53,734 nt of DNA from Desulfomonilaceae bacterium (lineage in GTDB: Bacteria > Desulfobacterota > Desulfomonilia > Desulfomonilales > Desulfomonilaceae), in assembly GCA_031082285.1 (NCBI GenBank), contig JAVHLK010000030.1, forward strand, positions 1 to 53,734, written 5' to 3'. Under the pieces are notes generated by a model, which did not search any database, was not told the DNA's origin, and was given only the letters and a program-made list of their open reading frames with translations. A program made the translations under genes and the position numbers. Of the stretch, positions 4,183 through 53,400 are shown in pieces (position 1 is the stretch's first letter; every line of letters starts with the position of its first letter).

Positions 4183-4755
4183 GTGTCAGCGAGGTACATC
4201 GGCGTAGTGCACGATTCTCACGATCAGCCGGCGTTTACGGGTCCGGAACGACACGTCAGAGAGCCGATGCAGCTTACCATGTGGGAACCCCGCGCCCAAT
4301 GGCCCAGTGCATGCCGGCCGGCCATTGTTGGATGCGGCGACCGCATGCCGGCCGGAGAACCTCGAGGGTCGCGCAAGGAGCGGAAATCGTATGGGATCCG
4401 CCGCGCTCGCGAGCACGACTGCCATAGTGGAGTTTTCTTCTATACCAGTCGTCGCTTTCCGCCGGTTGTCGTACGACCCGACGACCCGCAGGACGATGCC
4501 GGCGACGAGTCGGAGTTGTATGAAGTTCGGATTATCGACAATGATTACAATACGTATCAGGAAGTCATGGACATCACCATGTTGGCACTTGGAATAGATC
4601 CGGCGCAGGCGTTTTCCGTGGCTTGGGAGGTTGACCACCGAGGGCACTGCGTGGTGGCCCATGCTCCGCGGGAGCAGGCCGAGGAGCTTGCGAACGTGAT
4701 ACGGAGCATCGGGATAGAGGTTCAGGTGAATCCGGTATCGAAGCGGTCACATTAG
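4183..4755 (+). CDS. ClpS-like adaptor protein with altered pocket
   Basis: The last 78 residues (from about position 113) match the ClpS fold: YEVRIIDNDYNTYQEVMD, then AFSVAWEVDHRGHCVV, then an AEELANVIRSIGIEVQV end. ClpS normally delivers N-end-rule substrates to ClpAP/ClpCP protease. Here the usual Asn-Asp-Asp is D-N-D, and the His that holds the N-terminal amine appears replaced by Asp in VDHRG, so classical N-degron binding is doubtful. The GTG at 4183 only opens the frame; no start has a convincing ribosome binding site. An ATG at 4391 in another frame, preceded by AAGGAG, may mark the real start if a frameshift lies between (see findings). No clpA is adjacent. Confidence 0.75.
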   Translation: MSARYIGVVHDSHDQPAFTGPERHVREPMQLTMWEPRAQWPSACRPAIVGCGDRMPAGEPRGSRKERKSYGIRRAREHDCHSGVFFYTSRRFPPVVVRPDDPQDDAGDESELYEVRIIDNDYNTYQEVMDITMLALGIDPAQAFSVAWEVDHRGHCVVAHAPREQAEELANVIRSIGIEVQVNPVSKRSH

Positions 4756-4895
4756 GGTGTGCGGCGGTGTGGTGAGCGCAATGTCCGATAAGATATATTA
4801 TGTTAACTCGGTCTCTCCCGCAGGCCCCACGCTCCATGGCCCCGTCATTGCCCTGTCCAACGATCCTCGCGGATCCGTCCCCCATTCCCCCGCGT

Positions 4896-5696
4896 ATGCC
4901 TATGGATAAGAGCCTGACCCAGGACCGGAACACCCTGCCTCGCGTGAGTGTCGCGGTCATCGCCAAGAACGAGGAGGACCGGATCGGGAGACTTCTCAGA
5001 AGTACGTCGTTCGCGGACGAGATAGTCGTCGTCGACTCGGGGAGCTCGGATGGAACCGTGGAGATCTGTCGTGCAGGAGGAGCACGTGTCGTTCACCATC
5101 ACTGGATGGGATACGCGGCTCAGAAACAACTCGCCTTGGAGACGGCTCGAGGAGACTGGATACTGAACCTGGACGCGGACGAGGCGATTTCCGAAGAATC
5201 CGCGGCTGAGATGCTCCGAGCCATTCACGATGCCGATTCGGCTGTCGGGGGATTTTCCATGCCTCGAATGAGCCGGTACCTCAACCGGTGGATACGTCAC
5301 GGAGGATGGTATCCGGACAGAAAGATTCGGTTGGTACGAAAAGGACGGGCCCGATGGGTCGGCGACGGCCTCCATGAAAGGCTTGAAGTTGACGGTACCG
5401 TTGTTGAACTCACGCATCCTCTTCTCCACTACGTCTACCGAGGCATCTCGGATCAACTGCGAACGATCGATCGGTTTTCCACCGTGTTCGCGGAGCAACG
5501 CGGCACACCCGCTTCGCGGCTGTACGTGGTGTGGGGATTGTTTCATGCGGTGGGAAAATTCCTCGAATGCGCGTTCTGGAAATTGGGACTCCTCGACGGA
5601 CTCCCCGGCCTGGTGATTGCCGTGAACAGCTCGTTTTACGTGTTCTTGAAGCATGCCAAGGCTTGGGAGCAAGGTCTTCCTGAAGATAAGTGGTAA
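4896..5696 (+). CDS. Family 2 glycosyltransferase, LPS core (WaaE/KdtX-like)
   Basis: A GT-A fold glycosyltransferase of about 266 residues, likely adding a sugar to lipopolysaccharide core at the inner face of the membrane. The N-terminus has RVSVAVIAKNEEDRIGRLL and DEIVVVDSGSSDGTVEI, then the metal-binding DxD-type motif in NLDADEAISEESA. The middle part (WYPDRKIRLVRKG, GDGLHERL) is typical of the WaaE/KdtX subgroup. The C-terminus has a hydrophobic, probably membrane-associated stretch. The start is the ATG at 4896; ATG at 4902 is equally possible and neither has a strong ribosome binding site. The GT4 gene follows after seven bases, so the pair is probably one operon. Confidence 0.88.
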   Translation: MPMDKSLTQDRNTLPRVSVAVIAKNEEDRIGRLLRSTSFADEIVVVDSGSSDGTVEICRAGGARVVHHHWMGYAAQKQLALETARGDWILNLDADEAISEESAAEMLRAIHDADSAVGGFSMPRMSRYLNRWIRHGGWYPDRKIRLVRKGRARWVGDGLHERLEVDGTVVELTHPLLHYVYRGISDQLRTIDRFSTVFAEQRGTPASRLYVVWGLFHAVGKFLECAFWKLGLLDGLPGLVIAVNSSFYVFLKHAKAWEQGLPEDKW

Positions 5697-5703
5697 CCGG
5701 GTC

Positions 5704-6891
5704 ATGAAGATTGCCATGGCATTGGAGAATTTCAGCCGTCACGCCGGCGGCGCGGAGTCCTATGCCGTCGAGCTTGCAAATACTCTTGCATCCGAAGGAT
5801 GGGAAGTGCACTTGTACGGGCATTCGTGGGACGGACACCCGGAGAACGCGATCTTCCACGAGATTCCAAGGATGCCGAAGTGGGTCCCCCCGTCCGTAAG
5901 GATACTGGATTTCGCCCTTCGTCACAGAGCGATGGTCCGTGCAGAGCACTTTGACGTTGTGCTCGGATTCGGCAACACGATTGCCATGAACGTCTATCAG
6001 AGCCATGGAGGCGTTCATTACCTGAGCAGTGTGAGAAAGATCGGGGCGATTCGTAATCCTGTCTTGCGAGTTCTGAAGTTCCTCGCCATGTGTGCTTCGC
6101 CGAAGTATCACCTGCGTGCCCGAATCGAATCGGCTCCGTTCAGATCAAACCAACGGCCCGTAATAATAGCGATTTCCGATATGGTGAGAAACGACATGGC
6201 CGACTATTTCGGGATCCCGAAAGACTCGATTAAGTTGGTCTACAATGGGATCGACCATGCTCGGTTCGGACGCGCGGACCGGACCGAAGCTCGCCGGTTG
6301 AGAAGAGATATGGGCTTTGATGAGCACGTCCTCTTTCTCTTCATGGCGTACGATTTCCGAAAGAAGGGGGTGAGGAGCTTGGTGCAAGCGGCTTCGGTCC
6401 TGAGGGATCGGGTCGGCCGCGGGCGTTTTGGGGTGGTGGTGGTTGGGAGACCGCCCTCCCCTGCCCTCGGGCGAATGGTCAGGAGGCTCCAGCTAAGCGA
6501 TATAATTGTCTTTCCCGGTCAAACCACACAACCGGAACTTTATTATCACGCGTGCGACGTATTTGTGCTTCCGACCTTTTACGACGCCTGTTCGCTCGTC
6601 GTATTCGAGGCCATGGCCGCGGGGCTTCCGGCAATCACTACGATCCACAACGGCGCATCGGGAATCATGGAGCATGGAGTCGACGGCATGATTCTTCAGG
6701 ACGCGAACGACATCGGTGAACTCGCGGAAGCACTGTCGTTCTTTCTTGACGACGAAATTCGCGGCTCGGCGTCTTCCGCGGCCAGGCGTACGGCAGCTCG
6801 GTACACCCTGGAGCGCAATCATCGGGAGATGATCGCGGTGCTCACCGAAGCGGCACGAGCACGTGTCCGCGGTACCCTCGGATCAGTCTGA
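5704..6891 (+). CDS. Family 4 glycosyltransferase (WaaG-like)
   Basis: A GT-B fold retaining glycosyltransferase of 395 residues. The N-terminal glycine loop is HAGGAESYAVELANTLA. The nucleotide-sugar-binding C-terminal half contains VVFEAMAAGLPAITT with the EX7E-like pattern. Segments such as FGNTIAMNVYQSHGGVHYL and KLVYNGIDHARF are characteristic of LPS core glucosyltransferase WaaG and relatives. The ATG at 5704 starts the conserved MKIAMALENFSRHAGG, seven bases after the stop of the GT2 gene. The two enzymes likely act in succession on the same glycan; acceptor and sugar cannot be read from sequence alone. Confidence 0.9.
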   Translation: MKIAMALENFSRHAGGAESYAVELANTLASEGWEVHLYGHSWDGHPENAIFHEIPRMPKWVPPSVRILDFALRHRAMVRAEHFDVVLGFGNTIAMNVYQSHGGVHYLSSVRKIGAIRNPVLRVLKFLAMCASPKYHLRARIESAPFRSNQRPVIIAISDMVRNDMADYFGIPKDSIKLVYNGIDHARFGRADRTEARRLRRDMGFDEHVLFLFMAYDFRKKGVRSLVQAASVLRDRVGRGRFGVVVVGRPPSPALGRMVRRLQLSDIIVFPGQTTQPELYYHACDVFVLPTFYDACSLVVFEAMAAGLPAITTIHNGASGIMEHGVDGMILQDANDIGELAEALSFFLDDEIRGSASSAARRTAARYTLERNHREMIAVLTEAARARVRGTLGSV

Positions 6892-6893
6892 AT

Positions 6894-6908
6894 GAGGGCC
6901 CGGCCCTC
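6894..6908. terminator. Hairpin after the glycosyltransferase operon
   Basis: GAGGGC and GCCCTC are separated by three bases, immediately after the stop codon of the GT4 gene. There is no T-run, so it would be a weak or Rho-assisted terminator at best. It lies in the convergent gap between the GT4 gene and the ankyrin gene on the other strand. Confidence 0.3.
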
Positions 6909-7018
6909 CGGCAACTGCCAATGAAAGAGCCGCATGGGATTCCCGGGCACGGTACCCAATGCGGCATGTTCATATCGGGCTCAAGGTCCCGACGCGGCCT
7001 GCGGTTCGGCCGGTCGGC

Positions 7019-7702
7019 TCACGAGGCATGCTTGGCCAAATGTTCTCTCAACAGATCGACCACAGGCATGTACCCCATTGACGCGGCCCACATGAGTGCG
7101 GACCACCCGTTTCTGTCCGTTGCGGAAGCATCGGCTCCGTGGGCGAGAAGGATTTTCACCGCTTCCGTTCGGAATTCCGAAGCTGCGATTATCAGCGCAG
7201 TGGCTCCGTATTGGTCCTTGATTTCGAGATCCGCTCCGGCTTTCAGAAGCATCTCGACCACCGCGACACTTCCCCGTCGGCACGCGCGCATGAGGGGCGT
7301 CCATCCGTACTGATCCTTGGAATTCACCTCTGCGCCGCCCTGGATCAACAACCGCGCGGTTTCGACATGTCCGCGGCGACAGGCCTTCATCAGCGGAGTA
7401 GCACCGTACGGGTCTCTGGCTTCGGTGGCGGCTCCTCTGGTCAACAGCAACCTCACGACTTCAGGATGATCCATTGCAGCAGCCCAGAGCAAGGGCGTCC
7501 AGTTGGAGGCGGTCTTGCAGTTAGGATCCGCTCCTGATTCGAGAAGTGCGCGAACGATGTCGGTTCTCCCTTCGGACGAAGCCAGGATCAGAGGCGTGTA
7601 CCCGTACTCGTCCGCGACATTGGGGTCGACCCCGTGAGCCAGGAGCGCCTTGACCTTCGCCAGATCTCCCATTTCGGAGGCCAACAACAGTCTTTGTTCC
7701 AT
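7019..7702 (-). CDS. Ankyrin-repeat protein, seven repeats
   Basis: The 227-residue product is made entirely of seven 33-residue ankyrin repeats, beginning with an N-cap (RLLLASEMGDLAKVKALL) and ending in WSALMWAASMGYMPVVDLL. It has no signal peptide or other domain, so it is probably a cytoplasmic protein-binding scaffold. The start ATG at 7702 follows AGAGGT by six bases; upstream in-frame ATGs lack one. It lies 43 bases downstream of a second ankyrin gene, to which repeats 3-7 align almost one to one, so the two arose by tandem duplication. The pair is probably transcribed together from the sigma-54-type promoter near 8.53 kb. The binding partner is unknown. Confidence 0.9.
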   Translation of the reverse strand: MEQRLLLASEMGDLAKVKALLAHGVDPNVADEYGYTPLILASSEGRTDIVRALLESGADPNCKTASNWTPLLWAAAMDHPEVVRLLLTRGAATEARDPYGATPLMKACRRGHVETARLLIQGGAEVNSKDQYGWTPLMRACRRGSVAVVEMLLKAGADLEIKDQYGATALIIAASEFRTEAVKILLAHGADASATDRNGWSALMWAASMGYMPVVDLLREHLAKHAS

Positions 7703-7745
7703 GATGATACCTCTACGGCGGGAAGCCATGTGTTCGCCCATGTTT

Positions 7746-8342
7746 TCAGTGCTTGCGACGACCGTGATGTCCCTTCTCGTATTCGGTGAGAAGCGCGATC
7801 ACGTCCGAGTGACGCATGGACTCCGCCCACATCAGCGCAGTCCAACTGTTCCTGTCTCTCGCGTGAATGTCCGCACCTCGCTCGAGAAGTATCTTCACCG
7901 CATCGGTATGGCCTTCCGCAGCCGCCATGATCAGAGCCGTAGCCCCATACTGATCCGGCTCTTCGATGTTTGCACCGTGGTCGAGCAGGATCTTGATTAC
8001 TTCCGCGTATCCTCGGCGAGCTGCGCGCATGAGCGGAGTCCATCCGAATTCGTCCTCCGCGTTGACATCAGCCCCCTCCTCCAGCAGAACCGACACCACG
8101 TCGCAGAATCCTCTCCTGCAGGCCTTCATGAGGGCGGTGGCGCCATACTGGTCCGATGCTTCGGGATCCGCTCCGTTTCTCATCAGCATCCTCACCGATT
8201 CCGCGAATCCGTTCGCCGCGGCCCACATCAGCGGTGTCCATCCCAACTCGTCTCTGGATTCGGGATCGACTCCTGAAGACAGGAGTCCCCTCAACTCATC
8301 GACATTGCCCGAAGATGCGGCATCCAACAGTCTGTTATCCAT
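7746..8342 (-). CDS. Ankyrin-repeat protein, six repeats
   Basis: The 198-residue product carries six ankyrin repeats and a short basic tail (KGHHGRRKH). The repeats alternate between two types, opening WTPLMWAA or ATALMKACRRG, and joints repeat DQYG, DEFG or DRNS, giving a 66-residue super-period. The ATG at 8342 is supported by AGGAGG eight bases upstream; the open frame runs further up without protein character. No signal peptide is seen. It is the first gene of the minus-strand ankyrin pair, and its shorter repeat number against its neighbour suggests loss or gain of one repeat unit after duplication. Confidence 0.9.
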   Translation of the reverse strand: MDNRLLDAASSGNVDELRGLLSSGVDPESRDELGWTPLMWAAANGFAESVRMLMRNGADPEASDQYGATALMKACRRGFCDVVSVLLEEGADVNAEDEFGWTPLMRAARRGYAEVIKILLDHGANIEEPDQYGATALIMAAAEGHTDAVKILLERGADIHARDRNSWTALMWAESMRHSDVIALLTEYEKGHHGRRKH

Positions 8343-8526
8343 GGCTTGACCCTCCTGGCGTCTCGTCGTATCGACAGTCGGTTGTTCGAGTACTTCGACT
8401 GCTCGAAAACCGGACCGGAAGAACGACCTTGGCGGCATTAACCGGTGCTCGTGCCTTCTCGCGTGAAAGGACTGTCGCCCAATCGGCATCGCGTGGCCGC
8501 GCGTACCGGGTTTATGAATGAAATAA

Positions 8527-8541
8527 GCAATACGCGTACCA
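8527..8541 (-). promoter_or_regulatory. Sigma-54-type promoter for the ankyrin pair
   Basis: On the minus strand the sequence is TGGTACGCGTATTGC followed by T. It matches the sigma-54 consensus TGGCAC-N5-TTGC at every defined position except one (T for C). The GG and GC elements have exactly the required spacing. Transcription would start near 8515, about 170 bases before the first ankyrin ATG. Confidence 0.6.
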
Positions 8542-8908
8542 AGTCCGCTCATCCTATGGGACCGGCAAGCCGCAGCCTTGCTTTTCGCGGTACGTGCGGC
8601 CCCGTACGGATTTGAGCAATTACCGTCACGGCCACGGAGTTGCGCTGCATCCGCGAAACTCGACTCCCCGGTTTTCTCGCAGCAACTGCCGAAGGAAACC
8701 ATCGTTACTTGAAGTCCGGTTTGCCACGGTTCAAAGCGACCAATCCCATGAGATCGCCCTTTGACGAAGCGAACCTGCAGGATTAGATCGGGAACGAGAG
8801 GGACACCGTCATTCCGGGCCGGGGACCGAGATCCTTCTCATTCGCCGTATGCTGCGTACAGGCTTTCCGTACTCAACGGCCGGCAGAGTACTGCAAATGT
8901 CAGAAGTT

Positions 8909-45806: not shown

Positions 45807-46739
45807 TTATCGATCGGCCGTCTGTGGAGTAGGCGCGGCTTCCGCCTCGGCCTTCTTTGCGGCTGCAGCCGCCTTTTTCGCCGCCTGCTCGGCCTTTATT
45901 TCGGCAACTGCGTCGGCCTGCTTTTTCGGATCCGTGTACCGGAAGATGAACTGCTTGTTACACGCCCAGACCGCAGCCTTGGTGAGGTCTTCGTCGATGT
46001 GGTCGTAGTCGATCTCGATACGGCCGTTCACCATATTGACCACGTCCTTGGCCTTTCTCGTACACGCCATGCAGTGGATACAACCGGCTTTGCAGACGTT
46101 GGTGACCGCCTTTCCGGAATCATGGCTGCTGCAGGGCACATAACAGGGAGCATCCTTGGGAAGCATTTGGAGCACTCCCTTGGGACACGCGTTGACGCAT
46201 ACTCCGCACCCGGTGCACTCCTCGGGGTCGATCACCGGCATGTTGTCTTTCATGTGAATCGCGTGGAACGGACATGCCGCTTCACAGTCGCCGTACCCGA
46301 TGCACGCGTACGTGCACTCGTACGGACCGCCGAACGCGATAGCCGCGGCCTGACACGTATCAAACCCGACGTATGCGTGCTTCTTCTTCACTTCCCCTTC
46401 GTTTCGAGAACACCGGAGAAATGAGATTACGTCGCTCGTCTCCCCTGCCGCTTTGCCCGTAATCTCGGCGACCTTGTCGGCCACTTCCTTCTTACCGGGC
46501 GCGCACTTGTTCACAGGGATGTCCGGATTGGTCACCACCGCTTCCGCGTACGATTCGCATCCGGCAAATCCGCACGCTCCGCAGTTGGCACCGGGAAGGC
46601 AGGCTCTGACTGCCTCGATCTTCGGGTCCACCTTAACGGCAAAGCGCTTGGCCGCGTAGGCGAGCGCAACTCCGAAGATTATCCCGAACGCCACAAAGAA
46701 TGCCAATCCGTATGCCGCAGTCACCCAAACACTCTCCAT
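45807..46739 (-). CDS. rnfB: Rnf complex iron-sulfur subunit RnfB
   Basis: RnfB takes electrons from ferredoxin into the Rnf complex. The 310-residue product has one N-terminal membrane helix, then the RnfB-type cluster motif CLPGANCGACGFAGC, and further ferredoxin-like Cys motifs (CTYACIGYGDCEAACP, CTGCGVCVNACPKG, CKAGCIHCMACTRKA). The C-terminus is a long Ala/Lys/Glu-rich helix (AEQAAKKAAAAAKKAEAEA). GAGGTG lies before the ATG at 46739; the open frame upstream is not used. It is the last gene of rnfCDGEAB and, unusually, is set off from rnfA by 257 bases. Confidence 0.95.
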   Translation of the reverse strand: MESVWVTAAYGLAFFVAFGIIFGVALAYAAKRFAVKVDPKIEAVRACLPGANCGACGFAGCESYAEAVVTNPDIPVNKCAPGKKEVADKVAEITGKAAGETSDVISFLRCSRNEGEVKKKHAYVGFDTCQAAAIAFGGPYECTYACIGYGDCEAACPFHAIHMKDNMPVIDPEECTGCGVCVNACPKGVLQMLPKDAPCYVPCSSHDSGKAVTNVCKAGCIHCMACTRKAKDVVNMVNGRIEIDYDHIDEDLTKAAVWACNKQFIFRYTDPKKQADAVAEIKAEQAAKKAAAAAKKAEAEAAPTPQTADR

Positions 46740-46996: not shown

Positions 46997-47950
46997 TCAG
47001 AAGATCGACAGACCGGAAAACCCGAGAAACGCCAATGCGAACATCCCGGTCACGATGAATGCGATGGGCAGTCCTACAAAGGTCGGCGGAACGCGACACA
47101 CATCGAGTTTCTCGCGTACGCAGGCCATAAGGAACAGCGCTATGGCAAATCCTACGCCGGCTCCCGCGCCGAGACTCACGCTCTCGAACGGCCCGTACCC
47201 GCTGTCGGTCTGAATCAACGGGACTGCGAGAACAATGCAGTTGGTCACGATCAGTACCAAGTACACGCCGAGCGTCTTGAAGAGGTACGGATTCACTTTT
47301 CTCAAAATGGTATCCACAAACTGCACGAAGATCGCGGTGGTACCGATGAAGACGATGATCTTGAGAAAGTCCAGGTGGAGCACCTCCAGCACGTAGTTGT
47401 ACAGGAACCAGCAGAAGAAGGCCGCCAACGTCATAACGAGCGTAAAGGTTATTCCCATGCCTATCGCGGTCTCCTTCTTCTGGGAGACGCCGAAGAAAAT
47501 ACACAACCCAAGATACTTCGTGAACACGAAGTTGTTGATCAGCATGGCGCCAAGAATGATGGCGAGGAGTATCTGAACCTCACCCTTCTTGACCAAGAAA
47601 CTTCGACTGCCGATGACTTTGCCGTCGGACGTGATGTCCGTCGCGTCCACGATGTACTCCGCGCCGGTGTTCAACGGATCCTTGAAGTTCAGAGTCGCGG
47701 TGGTTCTGCGCGCATCCAACGATATGCTGTCAACCGGAATCCGTATGTCGGGATCGGGCTTTTCATAGACGTTATAATTGGCCGGGTCCTTTGCCCAGGA
47801 TTCGTCGACCGGCACGCCAAAGGGAATCTCAATTCCCTTATCATTCTTGAAATCGCCCGAACCCTCGGTTGCGGCAAAGATCGGGCACGCGGCAATCACC
47901 AGAAGCGCCAGGACCGTGCCGGCCGCGGCAAGGAATCTGATTATCTTCAT
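46997..47950 (-). CDS. rnfA: Rnf membrane subunit RnfA with exported N-terminal Ig-like extension
   Basis: RnfA is a six-helix membrane subunit of the ion pump. The core starts near residue 124 (EVQILLAIILGAMLINNFVF) and runs to the end with the usual LGLCIFFGVSQKKETAIGMG and IVTNCIVLAVPL. Typical RnfA is about 190 residues; this one has 317. The extra 123 residues begin with a signal peptide (FLAAAGTVLALLVIAACPIF) and a small Ig-like beta domain (SISLDARRTTATLNF, LNTGAEYIVDAT). GGAGGAGG before the ATG at 47950 overlaps the end of rnfE, one base upstream, which supports the long start. Confidence 0.93.
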   Translation of the reverse strand: MKIIRFLAAAGTVLALLVIAACPIFAATEGSGDFKNDKGIEIPFGVPVDESWAKDPANYNVYEKPDPDIRIPVDSISLDARRTTATLNFKDPLNTGAEYIVDATDITSDGKVIGSRSFLVKKGEVQILLAIILGAMLINNFVFTKYLGLCIFFGVSQKKETAIGMGITFTLVMTLAAFFCWFLYNYVLEVLHLDFLKIIVFIGTTAIFVQFVDTILRKVNPYLFKTLGVYLVLIVTNCIVLAVPLIQTDSGYGPFESVSLGAGAGVGFAIALFLMACVREKLDVCRVPPTFVGLPIAFIVTGMFALAFLGFSGLSIF

Positions 47951-47951
47951 G

Positions 47952-48575
47952 TTAGTGACCTCCTCCCGACGCCGGAATCTTGCCCGTAATCTTATACTCA
48001 AGCCAGTTGAACGTCGCCATGATGAATCCGATGACGAAGAATCCACCGGCCGGCAATATCATGACCAAGAGCGGCTTGGCTCCTCCCAGCACTTCGTACC
48101 CGAACAATTGCCCGACCCCGCTCAACTCTCGTATCGCACCCACCAGGCACAGGCCGAATGTAAAACCGATGCCCATGCCCATGCCGTCAAAGAACGACGG
48201 TATGAGAGGCTGCTTGGAGGCAAAGAGTTCGAGGCGCGATATGATGATAGCGAAGACCACGATCAGCTTCACGAACAGCGCCACCTCCTTGTATACCGCG
48301 GGAGATATGACGGGCAAAATCATGTCGATGACGCTCACCCAGAGCGCAATTACGATGACGTATGCGGGTATCCGGATTCGCGGATGGATATACGACCGAA
48401 AAATTGCCACCGTGCAGCTGGAAAAGACCTGGACAAAAACCACCGCGAGGCCGAGCATGAGACCGTTCTTCACCGATGTCGTAACGGCCACCGCGGGACA
48501 CAAACTTAGAGCCAACCGGAATATGGGGTTCTCCGGTATTAAACCGTTCCACAGTAGTTGTATGTTCTTGTTCAC
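47952..48575 (-). CDS. rnfE: Rnf membrane subunit RnfE
   Basis: A 207-residue membrane protein with six predicted helices, homologous to RnfA and forming with it the central ion/electron path of the complex. The N-terminus is LLWNGLIPENPIFRLALSL, and the family segments LCPAVAVTTSVKNGLMLGL and FDGMGMGIGFTFGLCLVGAI are present. The start is GTG at 48575 with GGAGG six bases before it. The stop is one base from the rnfA ATG, so translation is coupled. The C-terminal Gly-Gly-Gly-His is encoded by the ribosome binding site of rnfA. Confidence 0.95.
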   Translation of the reverse strand: MNKNIQLLWNGLIPENPIFRLALSLCPAVAVTTSVKNGLMLGLAVVFVQVFSSCTVAIFRSYIHPRIRIPAYVIVIALWVSVIDMILPVISPAVYKEVALFVKLIVVFAIIISRLELFASKQPLIPSFFDGMGMGIGFTFGLCLVGAIRELSGVGQLFGYEVLGGAKPLLVMILPAGGFFVIGFIMATFNWLEYKITGKIPASGGGH

Positions 48576-48587
48576 CTTCTACCTCCG

Positions 48588-49496
48588 CTAGAACGCGACC
48601 TGGACGTTGTCTTGTTTGATGGCATCGTTCAGAATGTCTATCCGGTATACGAACTTCCGAACCGCGTCCTTGACCCCAACCGTTACGGCAACGCTGGAAA
48701 TGGTCGCTCCCGTCAGGGCGTAGATGTCGGCCTTCAGATACTTGTCTCGGGCTTCCCGGACCTGTTCGGGGGTCATCCCCGCCCGTTTCGCCTTGGCCGG
48801 TTCGAGTGCTCTGAAATAGTCGTCGGGCAGCGGTTCCTTGACGACCTTCAGATTCCTCAACACGTCCTGTGTCTTGCCGACAAACTGATTACGAAAAAAA
48901 CCCTGCTCGATCTCCGCACCAAGACCGGGATCTTCCTCAGACTCAGTGATGGCGATTCCCGTCACCGTGAAGTCCGGGTCGAGGGAAACCATCAGATGGA
49001 TAAAGGTCTTGAAGCCCTGGGTCACCCCGGGAACCACGTAGCCCAATCGCTTGTCGCCGAGGTTTGCCACGTAGAGAGTCTGCGCCCAGACGGCTTTCCA
49101 TCCGTCCGGTAGGGCGTCGTTGACGATTTTGTCTCTCGATGCCCGTTCCGCGATCTCGGACTCTTTTCCCTCCAGAGGGATGACCTTGCCGGGTTTACCG
49201 GAAAGCTCGATCTCCGCGAGGACATGTCCTTTGTCCTTCAGCGGCAGTACGTAGCCGAGCATAGTTTTGGCATCCGCCGTGTTGATCACGTACCGGTGTA
49301 TGGAAAACACGTTCAGGTCGGCAGGAATCTCCTTGCCGGGTCCGTATCCAAGGAGGCTTTGAATGGTCTGCCTCTCGGTCTTTTCTTCCTGTTCCTTGCG
49401 GATGTGTTCAGTCTGTGTGTACACCGCTCCCAGAATCAGGGCTGCGGCTATGCATACACAGGTCAAGCTGAGTGTGATCTTAAAAATTTCTTTCAT
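48588..49496 (-). CDS. rnfG: Rnf flavoprotein subunit RnfG
   Basis: RnfG carries a covalently bound FMN on the outer face of the membrane. The 302-residue product has one N-terminal helix (LSLTCVCIAAALILGAVYT) and an FMN-binding domain with the attachment Thr in YALTGATISSVAV. GLGAEIEQGFFRNQFVGK is also typical. It is longer than many RnfG (about 200), mainly through an extended periplasmic N-terminal part. The rnfE start follows 12 bases downstream. Confidence 0.94.
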   Translation of the reverse strand: MKEIFKITLSLTCVCIAAALILGAVYTQTEHIRKEQEEKTERQTIQSLLGYGPGKEIPADLNVFSIHRYVINTADAKTMLGYVLPLKDKGHVLAEIELSGKPGKVIPLEGKESEIAERASRDKIVNDALPDGWKAVWAQTLYVANLGDKRLGYVVPGVTQGFKTFIHLMVSLDPDFTVTGIAITESEEDPGLGAEIEQGFFRNQFVGKTQDVLRNLKVVKEPLPDDYFRALEPAKAKRAGMTPEQVREARDKYLKADIYALTGATISSVAVTVGVKDAVRKFVYRIDILNDAIKQDNVQVAF

Positions 49497-49521: not shown

Positions 49522-50646
49522 CTACTTGACGGCCGCAACAGGCGCCTGTTTTGGGGGTGCGAATCGCTTCGGATGGAACCACTCATCCAGTGCCGGAGTG
49601 AGGCAGTTCATCAGCAGGATTGCATAGCATACTCCTTCAGGATATCCGCCCTTGAGACGGATGAGCACCGTCAACGCGCCGACGCCTATCCCGAAGACGA
49701 TCTGGGCACTCTTGAGCGTCGGAGACGTCACATAATCGGTGCACATGTAGAACGCACCGAGCATGAGGCCTCCCGAGAGCACCTGCACCAGCGGCTGACC
49801 GCCGAACCAGGTTTCACCGCCGAAGATCCAGGACAGCACCGCCACCGTGGCGATGGTCGATACGGGGATGTACCATGTGATGATTCCTCGGACCAGGAGG
49901 AATATCCCCCCGACGAGAATCAGGAGCGCCGAAGTTTCACCGATGCATCCGGGCATCGACCCGATGAAGAAATTCCTCCAGATCGTCTCCATACCGCCGA
50001 ACTGCTGCATCAACGCGTTCAGTCCATAGTGTTTCAAGACGTACAAGGGGGTGGCCGTCGATACGGTATCCACCGCGCCCGCTCCGAGAAAGATCCCGAG
50101 CGGAGACTGCGTCCAGTCGATCGGGGGAATCCAGGCTGCGGTCATATAGACGGGAAAGGAGGCCATCAAGAGAGCTCTTCCCACCAGTGCGGGATTCCAC
50201 ACGTTGAAGCCGAGTCCTCCCATCAGCTCCTTGTTGATGAATATGGCTCCGACCGCACCGATAATGGGAAGCCAATACGGTACTCCCGGAGGTATGACGA
50301 ACGCCATGAGGATTCCGGTAAGCACCGCGCTTCCGTCTCCCGCCGTGACCGGCCTCCCCAATGCCTTCTGCGAGATCGCTTCGACCACCACACAGGACAC
50401 GATACTGACCAGCGTAATGATCAGCCCTCGGAAGCCGAAAACGTAGATTGACAAGAGCATCACCGGTATCAGTGATGCGGACACGGTCCACATTATTCCG
50501 GACGTTGTCCTCCCCATTCTGATGTGGGGCGACACCGAAACAGACCACGTGGGTTCGATACTCTTCGGTTTTTGATCTAGTGTTTCGATTGTCCCATCCT
50601 CCCCGAACTCTGAATTTTTTTGGGTGTGCTTACCGATGGACGGCAA
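49522..50646 (-). CDS. rnfD: Rnf membrane flavoprotein subunit RnfD
   Basis: A membrane subunit with about ten helices and a covalent FMN, bound at the Thr of DTVSTATPLYVL. The conserved start region is WSVSVSPHIRMGRTTSGIMW; GDGSAVLTGILMAFVIPP and ELMGGLGFNVWNPALVG follow. The start codon is uncertain. TTG at 50646 gives 374 residues but has a poor ribosome binding site, while the best site (GGGGAGG at 50598-50604) is followed in this frame by no usual start codon. It lies between rnfC (85 bases upstream) and rnfG (25 bases downstream). Confidence 0.88.
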   Translation of the reverse strand: MPSIGKHTQKNSEFGEDGTIETLDQKPKSIEPTWSVSVSPHIRMGRTTSGIMWTVSASLIPVMLLSIYVFGFRGLIITLVSIVSCVVVEAISQKALGRPVTAGDGSAVLTGILMAFVIPPGVPYWLPIIGAVGAIFINKELMGGLGFNVWNPALVGRALLMASFPVYMTAAWIPPIDWTQSPLGIFLGAGAVDTVSTATPLYVLKHYGLNALMQQFGGMETIWRNFFIGSMPGCIGETSALLILVGGIFLLVRGIITWYIPVSTIATVAVLSWIFGGETWFGGQPLVQVLSGGLMLGAFYMCTDYVTSPTLKSAQIVFGIGVGALTVLIRLKGGYPEGVCYAILLMNCLTPALDEWFHPKRFAPPKQAPVAAVK

Positions 50647-50731
50647 TCGGCGGTGTGCCTCGGCTCGAACAAGGCCGTCCGTGCAGCCTCCCTCACGGTC
50701 TTGCCGACGACATACCGCAGGATCGGAAATC

Positions 50732-52054
50732 TCACCCGTGTTTTTTAATCTGTATCTTCGCCAACCTGGCAAACTGGACGAGAGGGCGCTTAGCAGGACA
50801 CACGTATGCACAGCACCCGCATTCGAAGCAATCGAAGACTCCGAACCTTTCGGTCAGGTGTCCGCGACCGGCTTCCACGAAAATCCCCACTTCTTTGGGA
50901 GACAGCCCCATCGGGCAGGCTTCCATGCACCAGCCGCAGTGAATGCACGGACCATGCAAGTCCGAATCCGTTTCCTTGCTGTTGAGGAACAGTACGCCGG
51001 AAGTAGTCTTGGTGACCGGTACGTCGAGAGTCGACATGGCGAACCCCATCATGGGACCGCCGGACACTATCTTCAGAAGATCTCTGGTACCGCCCAGGAA
51101 ATCCACGACGTCCGACAGCACGGTGCCCACCTTTACACGAAGGTTGGCGGGCTTATTGAGCGCGCGACCCGAAAAGGTGACGACCTTTTCGTACAGCGGT
51201 TTGTTCATGACGGTCGCCTCGAAAACGGCAAGTGTGGTGGATATGTTCTGGACGATCACCCCGACGTCGAACGGCAACCCTCCGCCCGGTACAGCTCGTT
51301 GAGTGAGAGAATAGATGAGCTGCTTCTCAGAGCCTTGCGGGTACTTGACTTCCATGCCCTGAACGGCCACATTCATATCGTCGGACCCGGAAGCCTCTTT
51401 CGCCGCTTTGTTCAGTGCGTTTATCGCGTCGGCTTTGTTGAGTTCGACGCCGATCACGGCATTCTTGATCCCAAGGATCTTCAGGATGACCTTGGCACCC
51501 TCGATGACTTTCTCCGGATGCTCGAGCATGATCCTGTGGTCGGTCGTAAGATAGGGTTCGCATTCGGCTCCGTTGAGGATGAGAGTGTCTATCTTCGCCG
51601 TGGGGGGCGGAGACAGCTTCACGTGCGTGGGGAACCCCGCTCCGCCGAGTCCGACAATTCCCGCGTTCTTGACCGCGGCGAGAAGTTTCTCCCTGGAAAT
51701 CTTCCGCCAGTCTTCCGACTGGTATTCCCGAGGAGGTGCATCAGGGTTTCTGTCGATGACGATCGCGTCGCACTTGACCATGGTAGGATGAGGTCTCGAC
51801 TCAATCGTTTTGACTACGCCCGTGACGCTGCTGTGAATGGTCGCACCAAGGGCCTTCTCCACGGTAGCGATGACATCGCCCTCTTGGACCTCCTGTTTCT
51901 TCTTGACAACAGGCTTGGCCGGCGCGCCGAAATGCATTGACAGGGGTAAAACCACCTGGGCGGGAGGCGGCATCTCCTCAATGGCCAGGTGTTCGGTAAT
52001 TTCCTTGTGTTCTTCGGGATGTATCCCGCCTCTTGGGAAGGTAAATCCAGCCAT
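50732..52054 (-). CDS. rnfC: Rnf NADH-side subunit RnfC
   Basis: RnfC is the cytoplasmic subunit that exchanges electrons with NAD(H) through FMN and two [4Fe-4S] clusters. The 440-residue product begins TFPRGGIHPEEHKEIT, has the FMN/NADH-binding GLGGAGFPTHVKL and LILNGAECEPYLTTDHR, and ends with two cluster motifs, CIHCGWCMEACPMG and CFECGCCAYVCPAKRP. AAGAGG precedes the ATG. It is the first gene of rnfCDGEAB. Together the operon makes a ferredoxin:NAD oxidoreductase that pumps H+ or Na+; the ion cannot be told from this sequence by eye. Confidence 0.95.
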   Translation of the reverse strand: MAGFTFPRGGIHPEEHKEITEHLAIEEMPPPAQVVLPLSMHFGAPAKPVVKKKQEVQEGDVIATVEKALGATIHSSVTGVVKTIESRPHPTMVKCDAIVIDRNPDAPPREYQSEDWRKISREKLLAAVKNAGIVGLGGAGFPTHVKLSPPPTAKIDTLILNGAECEPYLTTDHRIMLEHPEKVIEGAKVILKILGIKNAVIGVELNKADAINALNKAAKEASGSDDMNVAVQGMEVKYPQGSEKQLIYSLTQRAVPGGGLPFDVGVIVQNISTTLAVFEATVMNKPLYEKVVTFSGRALNKPANLRVKVGTVLSDVVDFLGGTRDLLKIVSGGPMMGFAMSTLDVPVTKTTSGVLFLNSKETDSDLHGPCIHCGWCMEACPMGLSPKEVGIFVEAGRGHLTERFGVFDCFECGCCAYVCPAKRPLVQFARLAKIQIKKHG

Positions 52055-52278: not shown

Positions 52279-52585
52279 GAAGTTCTTGTGGCGCCAAGTC
52301 GGCACTCAGACTCTCCGGCGAGCGGGTTTGCCCAGACATGTTGCGGCGAGAAAGGAAGGGACGAAACAAACCTCAGCGTCGCTCGAATCGATCCGTCTCT
52401 CTTGGAACGAGAGTAACTCGTCAAAGGTGCATCGCGGATTCGCGTTCGCGTCTCCGGAGAACACGACCCGTCCCCGCGACTGAACCGGTGAAGTACCGAT
52501 CGGTTTCGCCGGCGCAGCGGTTTCCCTAGACCACGATTCCGTGGTAACGTCGCGATCATGGCATGCACTCCGGAGGAGGAACGGA

Positions 52586-52882
52586 ATGATTGACAAGACC
52601 ATCGAACAACTGGTCATGGAGAGAATTGATCGCCCGGGCTGGGTTTCCACCAGAGGCATTCTCATGGACCCGGCCGGGGACCTGAATTCGGAAGAACACC
52701 GTCGGGCCGAAGAAGTCATGAAGGATCTCGCGCAGAGGGGTCTGGTGACCCTGTGGCGTCTCGTCCTCCAAGATACGGAAGAAGAGCTGCTGGCCGCGGC
52801 CAGACCCGGATTTGAACTGGACAGAGATCTCGAGGACCGAGGGGCCTGGGCCAGAGCGGTGAAGTACGATCCCAACGAATGA
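52586..52882 (+). CDS. Small protein paired with a PLD-like protein
   Basis: A 98-residue acidic, mostly helical protein that I do not recognise. The region around TIEQLVMERIDRPGWVST and HRRAEEVMKDLAQRGLVTLW could form a winged-helix-like fold with a recognition helix and a wing, followed by a tail rich in Glu, Asp and Arg. This is a guess from pattern only. GGAGGAGG precedes the ATG at 52586. Its stop overlaps the start of the next gene (ATGA), so the two products are made together and probably act together. Confidence 0.7.
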   Translation: MIDKTIEQLVMERIDRPGWVSTRGILMDPAGDLNSEEHRRAEEVMKDLAQRGLVTLWRLVLQDTEEELLAAARPGFELDRDLEDRGAWARAVKYDPNE

Positions 52883-53400
52883 AACTGCTGCGAAATCGCG
52901 AGATCTACGATCAATTTACAGAGACGCATCTGACCACGGCGCGGCGTTACGTCTGGATCGCTACGGCAAACGTCAAAGGGACCAATATTCGGTACAAGGG
53001 AAGATTCCTCTCCATCGTCGACCTCATGGCAACTCTGGTCAATCGCGGAGTCGCTTTCAGAATCATCCACTCCGAGATTCCTTCCAAGCCTTTTCGAGAG
53101 AGATACGATCAGCTTGACTCGAAGGGGCAACTCAGTGCGGGGATCGAGTTCCTTCACTGCGTGCGAATGCACGCCAAGATATTCATCGTAGACGGCGACA
53201 AGGCACTGGTCGGCAGCGCCAATCTGACCGGAGCCGGCATCGGAGCAAAGGCCGGCGCGAACCGCAACTTTGAACTGGCATTTCTTCTCGAGGGCGAGCA
53301 GGAAGTGCTGCCGTTCCTCAACTACTTTGACTACATATGGATGGGCGAGCCTTGCCGGACATGCGGCCGCCGAGATATCTGCCCCGCGCCCGCGGCGTGA
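52879..53400 (+). CDS. Phospholipase D-like protein with one HKD motif
   Basis: A 173-residue protein with a single PLD active-site motif: His98, Lys100 and Asp105 in CVRMHAKIFIVDGDKAL, followed by VGSANLTGAG and NFELAF, the conserved second part. Single-motif members act as dimers and include nucleases (Nuc, BfiI-like) and phosphodiesterases. The early segment VWIATANVKG also fits the fold. No signal peptide is seen, so a cytoplasmic nuclease is more likely than a lipase. The C-terminus has a Cys-rich end (CRTCGRRDIC) that could bind metal. It is translationally coupled to the small gene upstream. Confidence 0.85.
   Translation: MKLLRNREIYDQFTETHLTTARRYVWIATANVKGTNIRYKGRFLSIVDLMATLVNRGVAFRIIHSEIPSKPFRERYDQLDSKGQLSAGIEFLHCVRMHAKIFIVDGDKALVGSANLTGAGIGAKAGANRNFELAFLLEGEQEVLPFLNYFDYIWMGEPCRTCGRRDICPAPAA

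Follow-up and report, generated by a model that had tools for sequence, protein, structure and literature searches.

The rnfA gene of the window (the whole analysed stretch of DNA, 53,734 nucleotides) encodes a protein in which the RnfA core is preceded by a long N-terminal extension, and the locus raises the question of whether this extension is a real part of the protein and, if so, what it does in the Rnf complex. The six Rnf genes lie together on the minus strand in the order rnfC, rnfD, rnfG, rnfE, rnfA, rnfB. The features of rnfA and of the three genes of ordinary appearance are the following:

50732-52054, minus strand: rnfC; NADH/FMN domain, Cys residues of two [4Fe-4S] clusters present
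49522-50811, minus strand: rnfD; coordinates are those of the open frame; NQR2/RnfD domain
47959-47967, minus strand: Shine-Dalgarno GGGAGGAGG of rnfA, within the 3' end of rnfE; strong ribosome binding site
46997-47950, minus strand: extended rnfA; 317 aa, comprising signal peptide, Ig-like domain and RnfA core
47870-47950, minus strand: signal peptide predicted from sequence features (residues 1-27), namely K2/R5 as basic residues, a hydrophobic core and an Ala-x-Ala-like end
47585-47869, minus strand: periplasmic Ig-like domain of the SbsC/Big_5 type, spanning residues 28-122, with the signature [DS]PDI at 66-69
47009-47575, minus strand: RnfA core, residues 126-314, six helices; cluster cysteines Cys150 (47503-47501) and Cys238 (47239-47237) kept
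45807-46739, minus strand: rnfB of the ordinary short type, with 46739 taken as its start

The extension is a genuine part of RnfA

The gene runs from 47950 to 46997 on the minus strand, which a preliminary description of this DNA had left unstated, and its ATG lies one base past the stop codon of rnfE. The layout proposed there, a signal peptide and a beta domain ahead of the core, was recovered (residues 1-27 and 28-122, with the core from about residue 126), and the long frame has, as had been claimed, a strong ribosome binding site of its own just upstream, which is conserved. PF02508 (Rnf-Nqr family) matches residues 129-314 of the window RnfA with 165.8 bits (cut-off 23.8). The best-scoring model for this protein was TIGR01943 (RnfA subfamily), yet its 199.1 bits fall below the cut-off of 229.3, in line with the divergence of the clade described below.

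When 60 genomes were searched, the extension was present in frame in all 17 other Desulfomonilaceae genomes, with 69-75% identity. It was absent from all 26 matching genomes outside this family, where the best matches begin at residue 116 or later. The frame, the start codon and a purine-rich upstream Shine-Dalgarno site are conserved in 18/18 loci (L005-L022). Among the Desulfomonilaceae loci we observed no conserved start codon near residue 124; the nearest widely shared internal ATG, at about 135-139, falls within helix 1 and lacks a consistent Shine-Dalgarno site. An internal translation start near residue 124 was therefore rejected, and the claim that the extension is genuine held. An assembly error is excluded because independent genomes carry the fusion, including the complete genome of Desulfonema magnum (L063).

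The domain by itself was also searched for across 395 genomes sampled evenly from the phylum. Fourteen genomes were matched at E up to 0.01, and 13 of these matches are the extended-RnfA fusions; the 14th (G028, E 0.009, in an 890-aa frame) is marginal. The search gave 13 fusions and no clear standalone domain, which speaks against a separate gene for the extension, the case that had been named as counting against the fusion, and no second copy of the domain was found in the genome of the window. The reading of the extension as an artefact of annotation or assembly, in which translation would begin near residue 124 and the upstream part would not belong to one protein, has next to no probability: no point that supports it was found, and both the conserved start, frame and Shine-Dalgarno site and the fusion of every strong domain match argue against it.

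The mean pairwise identity was 24% in the signal peptide, 61% in the Ig-like domain and 83% in the RnfA core, and the median dN/dS was 0.15 for the extension (13 usable pairs) versus 0.07 for the core (14 pairs). Judged by its sequences, the extension is under purifying selection, and the RnfA fusion is genuine, with an occurrence far above chance.

The extension resembles the Ig-like domains of S-layer proteins

In a model of RnfA built from 18 sequences the extension reached a pLDDT of about 74-83; confidence was low outside the extension, with a mean of 58.9. The modelled extension matched SbsC (4uic) with a Z of 14.3 and an rmsd of 1.4 A over 90 residues (22% identity), followed by Sap and SbsB, and matches to CopC-like folds were weaker (Z about 8). 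The Pfam family Big_5 (PF13205) matched 16/18 Desulfomonilaceae domains at E up to 1, with a best value of 1.2e-6; the window domain scored 16.3 bits, the Pfam cut-off being 23.6. According to the model, the extension is an Ig-like beta sandwich close to the SbsC type, and the proposed resemblance to bacterial Ig-like domains is borne out by the fold comparison. It has the same fold as the S-layer Ig-like domains of SbsC, SbsB and Sap, but unlike them it occurs singly, attached to a redox protein of the membrane.

The most constant feature of the domain is a Pro-Asp-Ile loop, [DS]PDI, which is almost invariant. In the model the last strand extends to residue 120 and helix 1 begins at residue 124, leaving a linker of a few residues, so the Ig-like domain would sit directly on the rim of helix 1. 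No His or Cys is conserved in the domain across the clade and no CxxCH was found in it; His is absent from the domain in 12/18 Desulfomonilaceae rows and from the mature domain in the remaining ones. CopC-like copper carriers presumably bind copper through histidine ligands, and a CopC-like copper-binding domain was rejected, given the absence of histidines and a fold match of only Z about 8. A haem-carrying domain was likewise rejected, as there is no haem motif.

The exported domain fits the ordinary topology of RnfA

We observed that loops 1, 3 and 5 of RnfA are richer in basic residues than loops 2 and 4 and the C-terminus in 79/79 sequences, extended or not. By the positive-inside rule, these sequences indicate that RnfA is N-out, so an exported N-terminal domain fits the ordinary topology. 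The view that the extension alters the presumed topology of the first helix was consequently abandoned; RnfA is able to carry an exported domain as it stands. The topologies of RnfA and RnfE are mutually inverted, as stated in the available part of a review (PMC12174285).

The N-termini of the Desulfomonilaceae proteins have the form of ordinary signal peptides, and most lack a lipobox. In the 15/15 Desulfobacterales-type loci L051-L065, a Gly-Cys lipobox-like motif follows the hydrophobic stretch at a single alignment column, although a stricter lipobox pattern is matched by 8/15 of them. Cys22 of the window protein fits a lipobox and occupies the same column as the lipobox-like Cys of these homologues. 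A lipoprotein is thus a possible reading of the window protein, against which stands the lack of the motif in most Desulfomonilaceae. In the Desulfobacterales proteins the lipobox-like motif takes the place of the signal-peptidase site, and in some lineages the domain is probably lipid-anchored.

Extended RnfA marks a distinct subtype of Rnf

When 84,980 species genomes were scanned for patterns taken from the Desulfomonilaceae domain alone, which missed the divergent L077/L078 types, 30 loci were returned, titled Desulfomonile, Desulfobacteria or Deltaproteobacteria-type. The domain is fused to RnfA in 30/30 of them, of which the 15 loci L051-L065 were read over their full length; rarer or more distant carriers may exist in other phyla. 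The placement of some carrier MAGs in the Myxococcota, through the word Deltaproteobacteria, was taken as a naming artefact. In the sample of 395 genomes, an RnfA-family member was present in 148 and the extended form in 13, from five families, a tally that takes in one unextended match (L085) starting at model position 97 and reading through five stops. Extended RnfA proteins scored at least 377 bits and the other matches at most 217. A search with an RnfE profile singled out exactly the same 13/395 genomes (337-382 bits versus at most 211). Seven of these 13 genomes have no RnfA-family match besides the extended one; several of the others also have an ordinary Rnf or NQR.

In the trees of the RnfA core, RnfE, RnfC and RnfD, a single branch, supported at 99-100, set all the extended rows apart from the others; these trees come from quick searches within one phylum, with long branches flagged, and NqrE was the only outside sequence, added to the RnfA tree on a long branch. 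Duplicate contigs (L099, L100, L103, L106) were dropped from the trees, the residue counts and the cytochrome tally. The preliminary description had proposed a taxonomic mapping of the extension of about 120 residues, and the trees and searches indicate that extended-RnfA Rnf is a distinct monophyletic subtype, carried by Desulfomonilaceae, by several Desulfobacterales and by a small number of further lineages of this phylum. Since the clade is monophyletic, the traits that occur together in it may go back to a single ancestral lineage and do not count as independent events. In a literature search that left subscription journals mostly uncovered, we found no report of an N-terminal extension of RnfA or of an RnfE without the cysteine discussed below.

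The clade has lost a ligand of the intramembrane cluster

To our knowledge, the intramembrane [2Fe-2S] cluster of Rnf and NQR is held to need four invariant cysteines. The redox state of this cluster has been proposed as the driver of ion pumping. The divergent rnfE of the window is placed as follows:

47952-48575, minus strand: rnfE, divergent; Ala109 (48251-48249) at the cluster-cysteine site, Cys26 kept, Ser24 in place of Gly

Ala109 of the window RnfE aligns with Cys108 of A. woodii RnfE (9eri_E). This fourth cluster-cysteine site is Ala in 38/38 distinct extended clusters and Cys in 40/40 ordinary ones, so that the extended clade keeps three of the four cysteines, both from RnfA and the first from RnfE. 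Further changes surround the site (A. woodii numbering): in RnfE, Asn107 is Phe in 38/38 extended clusters, and Pro102, kept in 40/40 ordinary clusters, is replaced by Lys, Arg or Ala in 38/38; in RnfA, Pro107 is Val in 38/38 extended and Pro in 41/41 ordinary clusters, and Glu88, which belongs to a proposed ion-pair gate, has become Asp in 38/38 extended clusters but is Glu in 41/41 ordinary ones. Both helix-4 breaks around the cluster are without their proline. On the RnfA side, Thr110, whose T110G variant in A. woodii did not grow, is Val, Ile or Thr in the extended clade. This clade-wide divergence was missed in the preliminary description because it lies outside the part of the DNA with which that description dealt.

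No universal replacement cysteine was found in the 38 extended clusters. Cys54 of RnfE occurs in 34/38 of them, but it is absent from both deepest rows (L096, L097) and thus is no general substitute. The column of RnfE Ser24 (48506-48504), two residues before Cys26, is Ser in 37/37 extended and Gly in 40/40 ordinary clusters, which makes Ser24 a possible candidate for a replacement oxygen ligand. According to the available part of PMC11889175, the ligands of the membrane-buried [2Fe-2S] cluster are C25 and C113 of RnfA and C25 and C108 of RnfE, and A. woodii mutants in the cluster cysteines did not grow and gave an enzyme that was inactive and short of two irons. Because mutation of the cluster cysteines abolished activity in that organism (PMC11889175), proof is needed for a three-cysteine centre.

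RnfG is enlarged in the same clusters

The third altered component of the complex is RnfG, for which the window has the following features:

48588-49496, minus strand: enlarged rnfG of 302 aa; Thr265, which binds FMN, is kept, and EDPGLG (Asp189) stands in place of ETPGLG
49104-49349, minus strand: RnfG insertion 1, residues about 50-131; beta-sheet and helix between the stalk and the FMN domain
48741-48863, minus strand: RnfG insertion 2, residues about 212-252; helical, just before the FMN attachment motif

Across 41 extended loci RnfG has about 300 aa (298-335), apart from four exceptions: one is cut by a contig end, and three over-long frames become 293-301 aa with a start chosen from the alignment. 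In 40 ordinary clusters it has 187-255 aa, with one longer frame. The RnfG model (pLDDT 93.8) included both insertions with confidence, in the periplasmic part, and its fold matched NqrC and RnfG structures. The loop at the FMN site reads EDPGLG in 37/37 extended and ETPGLG in 40/40 ordinary clusters, and in the covalent-FMN motif, [ST]GAT, Thr265 is invariant in the 55/55 RnfG rows; the RnfG alignment used 55 of 81 rows, leaving out L098-L107 and some others. Insertion 1 was also considered as a duplicate of the FMN module, and this was rejected on a weak match of 26 columns (probability 17%). The anatomy of these proteins, their conservation, the co-occurrence of the altered traits and the loss of the ligand are apparent from the sequences.

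A proposed role for the Ig-like domain

We propose, with about an even chance of being right, that in this distinct Rnf subtype the Ig-like domain acts as a collar that docks the enlarged RnfG near a rebuilt three-cysteine centre. The domain would sit as a rigid collar where the RnfA/E groove opens to the periplasm and would receive the enlarged head of RnfG, thereby holding the RnfG FMN near the metal centre. That centre may still be a [2Fe-2S] cluster in which one ligand is not a cysteine (RnfE Ser24, for instance), or else an iron site of smaller size. As far as the available part of PMC9588780 goes, RnfA of the C. tetanomorphum Rnf has its N-terminal helix close to RnfG, and RnfG moves between RnfD and the periplasmic RnfA/E groove in solved structures; cross-linking of the NQR counterpart supports both positions, according to the accessible part of PMC10643135. 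From this movement and the proximity of the RnfA helix we infer the docking of RnfG by the collar, and from position and co-occurrence a contact between the Ig-like domain and RnfG. The earlier suggestion that the extra domain could stabilise RnfG stands as far as its location is concerned, from which it could act on RnfG. The position of RnfG at RnfD is unexplained by a dock at RnfA.

The ferredoxin domains of RnfB, the flavins of RnfD and RnfG and the NADH site of RnfC look ordinary, so the complex most likely still couples ferredoxin and NAD to ion transport, with a predicted change in the gating of the exit step. The nature of the metal centre and its effect on pumping would follow from the same reasoning. 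We assign somewhat less than an even chance to the fuller proposal of a previously unrecognised Rnf subtype, in which a three-cysteine transmembrane centre, either with a non-cysteine ligand or as a different cluster, is combined with a rebuilt periplasmic face that keeps the FMN shuttle docked, with a gating or potential unlike that of every studied Rnf or NQR.

The preliminary description had also suggested that a cytochrome, or some other electron carrier of the periplasm, could dock at the domain; electrons would then leave or enter Rnf in the periplasm. The domain does face the periplasm beside the RnfG FMN, and other Rnf clusters of the phylum have multihaem cytochrome genes; however, ORFs with at least three CxxCH motifs occurred in the fetched stretches of 2/38 extended clusters versus 11/41 ordinary ones, and the domain has neither a CxxCH nor a His or Cys conserved in the clade. 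Only one extended cluster (L052) has a multihaem ORF within 100 bases, and it also has rnfC/rnfD-like frames on the other strand. With no consistent multihaem gene in the extended clusters, cytochrome docking is not borne out and we consider it unlikely. We find it equally unlikely that the SbsC-like fold, lipid-anchored in Desulfobacterales, ties the complex to the S-layer, peptidoglycan or another envelope structure. S-layer domains are its closest folds and the lipobox-like motif is present throughout L051-L065, but the linker to helix 1 limits the reach of the domain, the lipobox is missing from most Desulfomonilaceae, and SbsC-type folds occur in many unrelated roles.

An aid to biogenesis is also rather improbable, if slightly less so: an exported, folded N-terminus would set helix 1 N-out or help to load the altered metal centre, and would have no part in turnover. 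It is in keeping with the cluster cysteine of helix 1, with ordinary RnfA being almost without an N-terminal tail and with the changed helix-4 residues around the cluster in this clade; the 61% identity of the domain and its near-invariant [DS]PDI loop, in contrast, suggest a specific partner surface and not just any folded tail. The loss of a ligand that is invariant in ordinary clusters could, finally, mean that the three-cysteine complex has degenerated or survives as a relic without redox function, which we regard as very unlikely, given that extended clusters conserve the two cysteines of RnfA, the first of RnfE, all eight of RnfC and the FMN motif of RnfG, that dN/dS in the RnfA core is about 0.07, and that the extended RnfA is the sole match in 7/13 extended genomes. 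The docking of RnfG by the Ig-like collar is the reading that we prefer.

Comparison with known Rnf and NQR systems

The Rnf complexes of A. woodii, C. tetanomorphum and A. vinelandii (9eri, 7zc6, 8ahx) likewise come from six-gene clusters with a conserved RnfA core, and share with the extended clade the Fe-S motifs of RnfC and RnfB, the covalent-FMN motif of RnfG and three of the four membrane-cluster cysteines. The extended clade differs from them in the exported Ig-like domain on RnfA, in an RnfG longer by about 100 aa and in the replacements around the cluster (RnfE Cys108 to Ala, Asn107 to Phe and Pro102 to Lys, Arg or Ala; RnfA Pro107 to Val and Glu88 to Asp), and may work differently from the known Rnf pumps. 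In the Na+-NQR of V. cholerae (7xk3, 8a1v), the NqrDE core is homologous to RnfA/E, and NqrC, one of the best fold matches of the window RnfG, is also longer than an ordinary RnfG. The clade nevertheless has RnfB and RnfC, and not NqrF and NqrA, and NqrD keeps the cysteine lost from the RnfE of the clade.

Cytochrome-linked Rnf, recognised by a long RnfB, a multihaem cytochrome beside the cluster or both, occurs in related bacteria of the same phylum, sometimes in the same genome (G394), and in contrast to the extended clade has no RnfA extension, a short RnfG, four cluster cysteines and often an RnfB of about 690 aa. An RnfB longer than 600 aa was found in 0/38 extended versus 12/41 ordinary clusters. 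The two Rnf types of these anaerobes, usually annotated alike, are thereby separated. Moreover, a conserved natural clade that lacks one cluster cysteine, and in which the extended form is often the sole Rnf match, offers a natural-variant comparison of the part played by cluster ligation and RnfG docking in pumping.

Gene neighbourhood of extended and ordinary clusters

Ordinary Rnf clusters with adjacent cytochrome genes of 4-8 haems, often with an RnfB of about 690 aa, were observed at L133, L137, L141-L145 and L147. Genome G394 contains both types, the extended L099 and the ordinary cytochrome-linked L137. The genome of L035 also has an NQR-like run of nqrB, C, D, E and F (4574-8602, contig C1), whose NqrD has an intact RnfE-type cysteine; none of the frames immediately upstream of this run could be recognised as nqrA.

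The gene before rnfC in Desulfobacterales-type clusters (L098-L102, L053, L056) is one that we take, by its start sequence, to be riboflavin kinase/FAD synthetase-like (RibF), and apbE follows rnfB in Desulfobacterales-type extended clusters, placing flavin supply beside a flavin-rich complex. In G301, a gene presumed from its start sequence to be nitroreductase-like (L096, 8796-9368) lies between the extended rnfA and rnfB, and nuo genes are located downstream of the extended cluster. A small phospholipase-D-like protein is encoded divergently to rnfC in several Desulfomonilaceae (window 52541-53400, plus strand; L105 3467-4315; L107 401-922), and in the window and L105 a short partner gene lies beside it.
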